Source: Thermoplasmata archaeon | GTDB taxonomy: Archaea; Thermoplasmatota; Thermoplasmata; Thermoplasmatales; Thermoplasmataceae | DNA: 34,009 nucleotides | Direction: 5' to 3' | Assembly (NCBI GenBank): GCA_021820405.1 | Contig: JAKADQ010000005.1 | Location: 1 to 34,009 of the forward strand | Shown: piece after piece, positions 24,111-33,323 of the stretch | Layout of the letters: every line of letters begins with the position of its first letter | Position numbering within the stretch: the stretch's first letter is position 1 | The notes under the pieces: generated by a model | What the model saw: the letters and a program-made list of their open reading frames with translations, nothing else | Databases searched by the model: none | What the model was told of the DNA's origin: nothing | Made by a program: the position numbers and the translations under genes

Positions 24111-25702
24111 TTATGTTTTTGACTTATCTTCACTGGATAGATATGTGAATATTAATCTAATCAATAATAAACTAAGGAGAAGAGTGATCCCTAGGAATAT
24201 AGAGGGTAGGTCAATTTGGGGAATTGCAAGTATTGCGCCAATAAAGAATGAAACCAATGGCGCAAAAGAACCGGAAATTATGGATATTGAAAATATTAGT
24301 ATCAGTCCGGCTATTCCGCCAAAGGAATAGATATTGATGTTTGTGGTCTCCTTCGGTATCCTGGAAATTATAAACGACAAAGTGACAAATGAGGAAAAGA
24401 AAAAAGCCAGTGCAGCGTCTGCAATTATGAGCACAGCATATATGATATCTCCAAAATTTGCGCCGATCATAACAATAACTATTGGAATAGCGAAGAAAAT
24501 GAATATTATAAGGGATGAAAGTGCCTTAGAGAATATCATCTCAGTTTTTGTAATCAGCCAAATCCTCAAATTTGCAAAACTTTTTCCTTCCATTACAAGA
24601 GACTGAATCGAATAAAAAGAAACTGACAGTGTTGTGAGCAGGAAAATTGCAATATAGGTAAAAAGTGGAGGGAAGTTTCCAAATCTTTTATCAACAAAAA
24701 CCTCCAGAAGTGCGGGAAGACTAAAAAATACCGGAAAGAAAAAGCTTGAAAGGTTTGTAAGATCTCTTGTAGCGAGCTTCAGATCCTTCATGGTCAATGA
24801 TACTATGGAGCTGAACTTCCTGCTATTTTTTCTTTTTATATGCTTATTCTGGAAAGTTGCCATGTTTCGATCGAACAGGTTTTCCAGAATATTCCTGGCA
24901 AGAAAGTAAGCAATGAAAATCGAAAGAATAAGATAAAAGAAACTCCATGAAAAGGATGCAACAATCGAATCCACATTTACATGATTAGTGAAAGCAATAA
25001 AGCCTATATCAAGAACAGGAAACACATAATTTAAGGGATACTGGACTGAGAAGGAAAACAGAAAGATATACCGCGGGAAAAATACTGTAACGTCAAAAAA
25101 TATGAATATGGAGATAAGACCAATCATTTTAAGGGAATTGAAAATACCAGAACCTATTCTTCCACTCCAATTCCCTCTTTGTGAAATGATGGACAGAAAG
25201 GACCCAACGGAAAAGCCCAGAACTATACATGTTGCACCCCAGATCATCTGAATTAACACATTATCCAGGTTTCTGTTAATGTAATAATAAAATACCATGG
25301 GTGGTATATCAAGAAGCATAGTATACACACCAGTGTTTACAAACCAGGAGGCAGGTAAAACCATGCCACTATCCTTAGTGAATAGGAACTTCCCGGGGTC
25401 TATGATCTTTTCATTCTTCAGGGTCTGAATCCACATGAATGAGCCAAAGGTGTTAATCCCAAATTGATAGAGGAATATGGAAAAACCAGTTGCATAGATT
25501 CCTTTGTAGGATACACTTATACCGCTATATGTGATAAGCAATGAAAATAACAGAAAAATGGCACTATAGATAAGGCCAGATCTGAATATGATATGCTGAA
25601 TATAGTTCTTGGAGAATGATCTTTTTTCAAACTCTCTATTAAATCTCTCAGATGATTTTAGTGCCTGGTATCTGTATTCCCTGTTGATTAATGTCGATTC
25701 AT
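24111..25702 (-). CDS. ABC-2 type exporter permease, 5' end apparently frameshifted
   Basis: A membrane protein of about 530 residues with about twelve hydrophobic segments and a polar central loop (KHIKRKNSRKFSSIVSLTMKDLK), the pattern of ABC-2 permeases. From 25700 to 24111 the frame is open. The first 53 residues (starting ESTLINREYRYQALK, then a first helix) look genuine but contain no ATG, GTG or TTG. An ATG at 25702, seven bases after a good Shine-Dalgarno site (AGAGGA), is one base out of frame and meets TAA after four codons. Adding one base after it, e.g. GG for G, gives MESTLINRE. So either one base was lost (mutation or sequence error) or an ATA/ATT codon initiates. Substrate unknown. 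Paired with the ATPase upstream. Confidence 0.75.
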
Positions 25703-25705
25703 AAA

Positions 25706-26485
25706 TTATTCCTCTGATCGAAATAAAGAATCACCTAATTTTTTTGCCCTCTCGAGTATATCCTCTTTTCCCGTTATTTGAAGGAACAACTTTTCCAGAA
25801 AACCTCCCTCTCCCTCTTCATTTAATTCATCCATATTTCCCTCCAGTATTTTTTTCCCCGAATCAAGTATCTGGACTCTGTTACACATTATTTCGGCCAG
25901 ATCGAGTATATGTGTAGAAAATATTACAAAGTGACCATTCTGGATCATTTCCCTTATAACCTCTTTAACAACAATTATAGATGTCGGGTCAAGGCCATTC
26001 AGGGACTCATCTAAAATTAAAACCTCTGGTTTTGAGGAAAGCGCAGAAAGTATGGAGATTTTCTGTTTTGTGCCAAACGACAGCATTCCGATTGGCCTAT
26101 CCATGGTCTCTGTCAGATCAAGTGCATCTGCAATACTGTACTTTATACTCTGATATTCCTCACCGTTAACACCTCTTATCCCGGCATACAGGTCGCAGTA
26201 TTCATTTCCAGTTAAGGTTTCATACAGTACTGGTGTCTCAGGAACATAAGCTATATGTTCCCTGGCAAATTTTTCATAGAACTCAATTTGATTGCCATCA
26301 ATTTTAATGGTTCCAGAATCATACTTGATAATCCCAGAAATTATTCTCAGGGCCGTGGTTTTACCGGATCCATTTGGACCAATCAGGCCTTCAACCAGTC
26401 CACTATGGAACGAAAGATTCAGTTCAGAAAGCCCTATCTTGCTTCCGTATTTTTTTGATATATTTTCAGCTTCAATTTTATTCGT
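25706..26485 (-). CDS. ABC-2 type exporter ATPase without a canonical start codon
   Basis: About 259 residues with a full ABC ATPase: Walker A GPNGSGKT (36-43), signature LSFGTKQ (135-141), Walker B VLILDE (155-160) and switch H192. The first in-frame ATG is at 26104, inside the domain, and would remove Walker A. Upstream of it the frame is open to a TAA at 26508-26506. The family-like N-terminus NKIEAENISKKYG is preceded by ACG (26485) where ATG is expected, and that ACG is about 24 bp from a good TATA box. Candidates are therefore ACG 26485 or ATT 26476. Either non-canonical initiation or a lost start codon (T to C) explains this. It should power the adjacent permease; the cargo is unknown. 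Confidence 0.8.
   Translation of the reverse strand, partial: TNKIEAENISKKYGSKIGLSELNLSFHSGLVEGLIGPNGSGKTTALRIISGIIKYDSGTIKIDGNQIEFYEKFAREHIAYVPETPVLYETLTGNEYCDLYAGIRGVNGEEYQSIKYSIADALDLTETMDRPIGMLSFGTKQKISILSALSSKPEVLILDESLNGLDPTSIIVVKEVIREMIQNGHFVIFSTHILDLAEIMCNRVQILDSGKKILEGNMDELNEEGEGGFLEKLFLQITGKEDILERAKKLGDSLFRSEE
25710..25715 (-). promoter_or_regulatory. Shine-Dalgarno site pointing to a frameshifted permease start
   Basis: AGAGGA, at the end of the ATPase gene, is followed after seven bases by the ATG at 25702. This is ideal spacing and marks the ancestral permease start even though that ATG is now out of frame. Confidence 0.55.
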
Positions 26486-26503: not shown

Positions 26504-26514
26504 AAGTTATAATA
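26504..26514 (-). promoter_or_regulatory. TATA box of the ABC-2 exporter operon
   Basis: TATTATAACTT on the minus strand is centred about 24 bp from the ACG at 26485. In this genome's leaderless pattern the start codon would be expected there. The remaining gap to 26640 shows no gene. Confidence 0.45.
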
Positions 26515-26640
26515 GTTTTCAAAATTACAGATAAGTTCAATACGAAAAGTAAAAATATTTTATAAAACAGTTTCAAAATAAAAATTTCAGACTGATAAAT
26601 GTTCAAGTTTGAAATTGAATTAAAGTTCTCCTGAGTGTCG

Positions 26641-31856: not shown

Positions 31857-32603
31857 TTAATAGGGTTCGCCTGAATTCAAACTGGTGAGATTCTCCACAT
31901 CTCCATAGCCTTCCCTGACAACCTTCCACAAATATACGAATGCAAGGCCTATAAGAAGCGAACTGGCGATTCCTAGCACGGATAATGAACCGTATATGCT
32001 GCTGCTAAGAATACTGGTTGTGTTTAAGCTCTTTCCCTGTGAAGATGCCTGAACAATTGATGATACGTTGATTGATTCCACTGCGATATATGATCCGATT
32101 ACCGAGGCAGCAATTCCTAGAATAATCATCAACGAAAATATTCTTCTCTGAATCGATTCGACGATCCCAACACCCATAAGCAAATAGCATAGTCCGAAGG
32201 GTACTAATTCCAAAGGAATTATAAGTGCCAGAAGATCGTTCAATATGCCCCTTGCCATCGTGGCTGACATTGTTGAATTTGCCGTTCCGGTGGCACTCAC
32301 TGAACTAAATACAGTTGCGAATACGACAGAAACAAACACCCAGAATATGATAAAGAGGGAAAGAATAAAAAGCACTATATCAAATGTTAGTAGCCTGTGC
32401 TGTAATTCTCCCATTGCATGCCTCTTCATGAACAACAATATGAATCCTATAAAAACAATAAAAAAGCCAATAGCACCTATTAAAGGAATAATCGATAACA
32501 AAACACCAACTCCTATTAACAGGTAATAAGTTGCAATTGAATCTGATTCTGGCCCCCGATTCAATTTGGTTTGATTTCCATCAGAAGTTTCAACATTCTC
32601 CAT
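31857..32603 (-). CDS. DUF973-like membrane protein
   Basis: A 248-residue integral membrane protein with five to six helices (about 26-59 as one or two segments, 74-97, 122-145, 152-170 and 205-228). The long outer loop contains N-x-S/T sites (NSTMSATMARG, NTTSILSSS). It resembles archaeal DUF973 proteins, which have no known function. The start is well supported: a TATA box (32623-32634) is centred about 26 bp before the ATG at 32603. No operon partner. Confidence 0.68.
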   Translation of the reverse strand: MENVETSDGNQTKLNRGPESDSIATYYLLIGVGVLLSIIPLIGAIGFFIVFIGFILLFMKRHAMGELQHRLLTFDIVLFILSLFIIFWVFVSVVFATVFSSVSATGTANSTMSATMARGILNDLLALIIPLELVPFGLCYLLMGVGIVESIQRRIFSLMIILGIAASVIGSYIAVESINVSSIVQASSQGKSLNTTSILSSSIYGSLSVLGIASSLLIGLAFVYLWKVVREGYGDVENLTSLNSGEPY

Positions 32604-32664: not shown

Positions 32665-33260
32665 TCAGAGTAGTTTCAATATTTCATCTGTGGAAAGTAC
32701 CCTACCAATTCTTTTTAAGACATATTTCACCGAGACGTTATGGCTCTCCTCCGAGACGTCTCCCATGGCATCTGAGACGAATATCTGGTTATAGCCATAT
32801 TCGTAGGCAAACCTTGCAGTGCTTTCAACGCCATATGTTGTTGCAATTCCACAGAGGACAATTGTGTCTATCTTTCTTCGCCTCAGTTGCAGATCCAGTT
32901 CTGTTCCATAAAAGGCGCCCCACTGTCTCTTTTCAATTACTATGTCGCTTTTTGATACATTAAGGTCAGGCATAAAATCTGCCCAGTCATTTTGTATCTG
33001 GCCGCTCCTTATCATCGATGAGTCACTTATGGGGTTCAACGCAATCTCAGGTGTTGGGTTAACATGTAAGGAAACACCTTCATATTCTTTTCACGAAATT
33101 TATTTGCAAGAGTTGATGCATTCCTTATAATTTCTGATGATGGCAGGGGCTTCGTATCCATGGCAGATATCCCCTTTTGAAGATCTATTATGACAAGTGC
33201 AGTCTTTTCTGGTATGAGTTTTTCATTTTCGCCCATGGCCAACAAATCGAAACAAATCAT
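32665..33260 (-). pseudogene. YecD-like isochorismatase-fold hydrolase, frameshifted
   Basis: Two adjacent frames together encode one isochorismatase-family protein of about 198 residues. Frame 1 (from ATG 33260) reads LIPEKTALVIIDLQKGI...NMKVF and then leaves the family. The continuation HVNPTPEIALNPISD...IVIEKRQWGAFYGTELDLQLRRR...IDTIVLCGIATTYGVESTAR lies in another frame. One base missing near 33066-33074 explains the split. The Asp (IDLQKG) and Lys (IEKRQWGAF) of the triad are present, but the usual nucleophile Cys is replaced by Gly (TTYGVEST), as in E. coli YecD, so loss of catalysis is not itself a sign of decay. Substrate unknown. The leaderless TATA box is intact, so the lesion is recent or a sequence error. 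Confidence 0.78.
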
Positions 33261-33280
33261 TTTAAGGTTCTGATTTTCAA

Positions 33281-33290
33281 AAATATAAAT
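33281..33290 (-). promoter_or_regulatory. TATA box for the isochorismatase-like gene
   Basis: ATTTATATTT on the minus strand is centred about 26 bp before the ATG at 33260. This favours that codon over the ATG at 33236. Confidence 0.45.
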
Positions 33291-33323
33291 TTTTTATATG
33301 ATAAAAAGCATGAAATTCGAGTT

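Follow-up and report, generated by a model that had tools for sequence, protein, structure and literature searches.

Near-cognate start codons, mainly ACG, as probable translation starts of a 12TM_1-type ABC exporter pair and other genes in Thermoplasmatales

Near-cognate start codons are of a known kind. The infC gene of E. coli starts at AUU and is autoregulated through IF3; it resembles the archaeal genes described here in that a near-cognate start is kept in a single gene, and differs from them in its IF3 autoregulation, whereas in the archaeal set ACG predominates. In yeast ALA1, a non-AUG codon serves alongside AUG as an alternative initiator, whereas in the archaeal genes the near-cognate codon appears to be the only plausible start of whole genes, including one for a ribosomal protein. 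ALA1 (ACG) and GRS1 (TTG) are likewise cases of natural near-cognate initiation, served by factors related to the archaeal ones (PMC2909995). It has been reported that ACG, ATT, CTG, and ATA serve as start codons in yeast, where TTG, CTG, ACG, and ATT reach about half of the ATG level and GTG, ATA, and ATC about 20% (PMC2909995). In an E. coli reporter study, ACG gave 0.1–1.5% of the ATG level (PMC6925171), a figure that counts against the main reading given below. Chloroplasts offer a further likeness, with ACG in the DNA at the start position, which is edited to AUG (PMC9845219). For archaea, the portions of a review available to us name only AUG, GUG, and UUG as start codons and describe several initiation factors as common to archaea and eukaryotes (PMC7531240). 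In the literature searched, which included few subscription papers, no report of an archaeal ACG start was found, and conserved, ACG-led use in archaeal core genes was not met there.

The window, i.e., the whole 34,009-nt stretch of DNA analysed, carries two adjacent minus-strand genes at 25706–26485 and 24111–25706. The product of the former matches ABC_tran (PF00005) with 96.2 bits against a Pfam gathering score of 25, and that of the latter matches PF09847 (12TM_1) with 64.6 bits against a gathering score of 33.2; since the two matches fall in partner genes, they form an ABC exporter pair of the 12TM_1 type, consisting of an ATPase and a permease. The genome of the window (G000) is a 72.5% complete metagenome bin of 130 contigs, and several of the genomes compared are also incomplete metagenome bins. 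Together with G010, G005, and G006, it belongs to Cuniculiplasma or to a genus very near it within the Thermoplasmatales (hereafter, the genus), and these three further genomes carry close orthologues of the permease, 68% identical to that of the window in G010 and 56% in G005 and G006. The 12TM_1 (PF09847) exporters of other Thermoplasmatales genera are likewise encoded by an adjacent ATPase and permease, with the permease beginning at the stop codon of the ATPase or close to it; they mostly use ATG, GTG, or TTG starts, whereas the genus of the window has ACG and AUU/AUA.

The permease frame is open from 25730 to its stop codon at 24113–24111 (539 codons, minus strand). An earlier note on this DNA had described it as a frame without a start, which is borne out: counted from the Ile codon ATT at 25706–25704, there is no ATG, GTG, or TTG for 55 codons, the first being TTG at 25541 (index 55); the corresponding index is 38 in G010 and 15 in both G005 and G006, and in none of the four species was an ATG, GTG, or TTG found that could give the full permease N-terminus. 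Over the 45 codons following ATT, a stretch that extends a few codons beyond the first such codon of G010, G000 and G010 show differences of 7/4/24 by codon phase (p = 2e-5); the permease codons upstream of the first ATG/GTG/TTG are thus real coding sequence under protein-level selection. In the four species, an Ile codon is aligned at the ATPase stop codon (ATT/ATT/ATA/ATA), and many other genera have an ATG or TTG overlapping the stop. This Ile codon is the putative permease start, assigned with less certainty than the ACG of the ATPase. The permease start codon is not unique, with ATT versus ATA/GTA at the stop overlap and, in the window, ATA at 25709–25707 as the alternative; it is also not ACG, which counts against the main reading. 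A Shine–Dalgarno-like AGAGG at 25711–25715 precedes the ATT by 4 nt and an off-frame ATG by 8 nt, and is weaker or missing in G005 and G006.

The off-frame ATG lies at 25702–25700 on the minus strand, with CAGAGGAATAATTT just before it, and, as had been claimed, opens only four codons beside the open permease frame (ATG AAT CGA CAT TAA, reading MNRH*, 25688–25702). The same note took it for the permease ATG put one base out of frame, a state that a single missing base would explain. Neither a missing base nor a consensus error survives the comparison, and the ATG is not a damaged start: it arises from conserved Tyr-Glu codons (TAT GAA/GAG) in G000 and G010; it recurs in the 68%-identical G010, where it reads ATG AGT CAA ACC TGA; no ATG stands there in G005 and G006; and the upstream codons are under selection. 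The mini-frame is judged incidental. A functional upstream mini-gene at this ATG was also considered and ruled out, as it is not kept in G005 and G006.

Similarly, the ATPase lacks a normal start, as previously noted; its first ATG/GTG/TTG in the window is ATG at 26104, 127 codons in and past the Walker A motif, and its stop codon is TAA at 25708–25706. ACG stands at the start position in all four species (26485–26483 in the window), three codons before a conserved N-terminal Ile; at roughly this position, TTG, GTG, or ATG is the usual codon in other genera. In G005 and G006, TAA TAA occurs two codons upstream of the ACG. Upstream of the first ATG/GTG/TTG, the ATPases of G000 and G010 differ by 9/7/25 according to codon phase (p = 2.6e-4). 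A TATA-like box, CTATTATAA, is found at 26507–26515 (minus strand), centred 26 nt upstream of the ACG, and would act as the promoter; a box reading CTATTATAA or CTATTTTAG is present at the same spacing in G010, G005, and G006, with a second TATA-like stretch further upstream in G005 and G006. This fixed distance between box and ACG suggests a leaderless ATPase mRNA. The claim that both genes of the exporter share a start defect while their bodies are clean stands as far as the missing normal starts and the clean bodies go; what is found in each gene is a near-cognate codon kept at the expected place.

A survey blind to ACG, covering 1.30 Mb of G006 and 0.98 Mb of G010 (618 orthologue pairs), was made for other genes without ATG, GTG, or TTG. 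Its first filter picked out 65 pairs, in most of which promoter DNA or DNA of the preceding gene had been aligned ahead of a real start, and stricter tests were applied afterwards; four convincing genes have coding sequence conserved before the first ATG/GTG/TTG in both species, namely the exporter ATPase, the exporter permease, the exosome protein Rrp4, and an MFS transporter, all found without looking for ACG. Three of the four (ATPase, Rrp4, and MFS) have ACG at the start position in both G006 and G010. A wider pass over 559 pairs, 517 of which have a shared canonical codon near the N-terminus, brought in two more genes that show ACG in both genomes, those of ribosomal protein eL43 and of a second ABC ATPase; these two are not an unbiased sample because they were chosen from a list displaying ACG/ACG columns, whereas Rrp4, MFS, and the exporter genes are free of this bias. 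Gene names other than those of the exporter are readings of translations, not database results. The second ABC ATPase and the following cases concern G006 and G010 only. One-sided comparison yielded further genes. The putative gene for ATP synthase subunit D shows ACG in G006 (contig C14, around minus-strand index 238491) at the position of an ATG in G010 (C17, around 2663). The same comparison gave, each after a GGTGG or GGTGGT-like sequence, a reductase with GTG/ATT at its start (G006 C10/G010 C19) and FolD with CTG/TTG (C12/C6); an EamA-type transporter has ATC/ATC (C12/C20) after a sequence of the same GGTGG or GGTGGT-like form, which resembles a Shine–Dalgarno element.

The ACG codons are conserved to considerable depth, in counts that come from related sequences and are not independent. 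Rrp4 has ACG in 11 of 11 species of the genus, with a Shine–Dalgarno-like GTGAT upstream, and other genera mostly have ATG in that column, a few showing TTG instead, or an ATG displaced downstream by one codon. Within the genus, certain Rrp4 genes additionally contain an in-frame GTG, placed either two or three codons ahead of the ACG or seven codons after it; the upstream GTG is excluded as the start in four species because an in-frame TAA directly precedes the ACG there. For eL43, ACG is present in exactly the exporter-bearing species (G000, G005, G006, and G010); the eight remaining members of the genus have ATG, and the Shine–Dalgarno region is similar between the two groups. The MFS transporter has ACG in all eight species of the genus in which it was compared and an in-frame ACG in 19 of 22 sequences from two families of the order; most of its sequences contain no ATG/GTG/TTG in the open N-terminal stretch, and three of those with ACG outside the genus also have a canonical codon nearby. 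Orthologues from another family (f3; L230–L233) likewise carry an in-frame ACG close to the N-terminus, with a different spacing to the conserved body. In Rrp4 and MFS, the start-position ACG never changes to ACA, ACC, or ACT within the genus; by comparison, none of the columns with conserved fourfold codons is invariant (0/46 in Rrp4, 0/109 in MFS), and internal Thr/Thr columns keep ACG as ACG in only 62 of 432 cases. Since the start-position ACG is invariant while conserved fourfold codons vary, an ordinary Thr codon is unlikely.

With a probability that we put at a little over three in four, both exporter genes are intact, and their translation begins at near-cognate codons through the ordinary initiator Met-tRNA, as part of a wider Thermoplasmatales use of such codons. 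On this reading, the ATPase would be initiated at ACG 26485, probably on a leaderless mRNA, and the permease, probably through termination–reinitiation, at AUU 25706, which lies at the stop codon of the ATPase and is AUA in two relatives. Direct decoding of the near-cognate codons by Met-tRNAi, with insertion of Met, would be the simplest account, and near-cognate codons, mainly ACG, would be in wider use in the Cuniculiplasma lineage and in other Thermoplasmatales. The state of the two genes looks like an overlooked mode of translation start rather than a sequencing error or a broken gene. Chances are about even for the further proposal that ACG is a genuine Thermoplasmatales start codon selected in particular genes (Rrp4 and MFS and, in one subclade, eL43 and the exporter) to serve as an inherently weak start that the levels of initiation factors might adjust; that a weak start codon lowers or tunes expression is a guess. 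Gene calling uses AUG, GUG, and UUG only, and if ACG and AUH do start Rrp4 and a ribosomal-protein gene, many archaeal proteins would be annotated too short or missed, and the choice of start codon by archaeal initiation factors would be looser, or set gene by gene, in a eukaryote-like manner.

Several other explanations have to be set against near-cognate initiation. The permease might have no start of its own and be made as an ATPase–permease fusion through a programmed −1 frameshift late in the ATPase gene, which we regard as improbable. In all four species, the permease frame already runs open some ten codons ahead of the ATPase stop, but the similarity in that stretch is largely imposed by the overlapping ATPase codons; no classical slippery heptamer was seen by eye in the four overlap sequences, an inspection that an unusual site could escape; separate permease starts overlap the ATPase stop in other genera; and the start of the ATPase would be left unaccounted for. 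Somewhat more improbable is C-to-U RNA editing, by which ACG would become AUG before translation, the permease needing a separate explanation. We know of no mRNA editing of this start-codon type in archaea. Among the non-NTG start codons observed, ACG is the most frequent, and there is a chloroplast precedent at the rpl2, psbL, and ndhD start codons (PMC9845219), yet editing of the chloroplast type would account neither for ATT/ATA in the permease nor for the other archaeal cases with ATT, ATC, and CTG.

ATG, GTG, and TTG codons are present inside both genes, so that shorter proteins might be translated from them; this is highly unlikely, however, as the positions of these codons differ from species to species, the codons upstream of them are under selection in both genes, and a downstream start in the ATPase of the window would remove Walker A. 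Sequencing or assembly error, recent inactivation, or phase variation has a probability close to negligible. G000 is an incomplete metagenome bin and another gene of the window appears frameshifted, but the exporter is in the same state, with intact bodies, in four separately assembled genomes whose permeases are 56–68% identical; the same arrangement in four species, together with selection on the upstream codons, contradicts the loss of a base, recent inactivation, and pseudogene status. Neither a repeat tract nor a length variant supports phase switching, and a pseudogene or phase-variable gene was rejected on these grounds. The earlier note had left a choice between very recent silencing, phase-like switching, and unusual initiation; only the last is upheld. 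The other window gene, which is isochorismatase-like (32665–33293, minus strand), is split over two overlapping frames, 33036–33293 and 32665–33090; it is one intact frame in G010 and a single matching frame in G006, and judging from these frames the split is a frameshift in the G000 genome or its assembly.

Regarding the tRNAs that might serve near-cognate initiation, no initiator tRNA gene turned up in the parts of G006 and G010 that were examined, so an altered initiator may exist. A special initiator-like tRNA for ACG was considered and rejected, the tRNA-Thr(CGT) being nearly identical to tRNA-Thr(TGT). In the fourth G010 contig scanned, ARAGORN reports a tRNA-Met(CAT) of 90 bases at 31909–31998, with an apparent intron after the anticodon.
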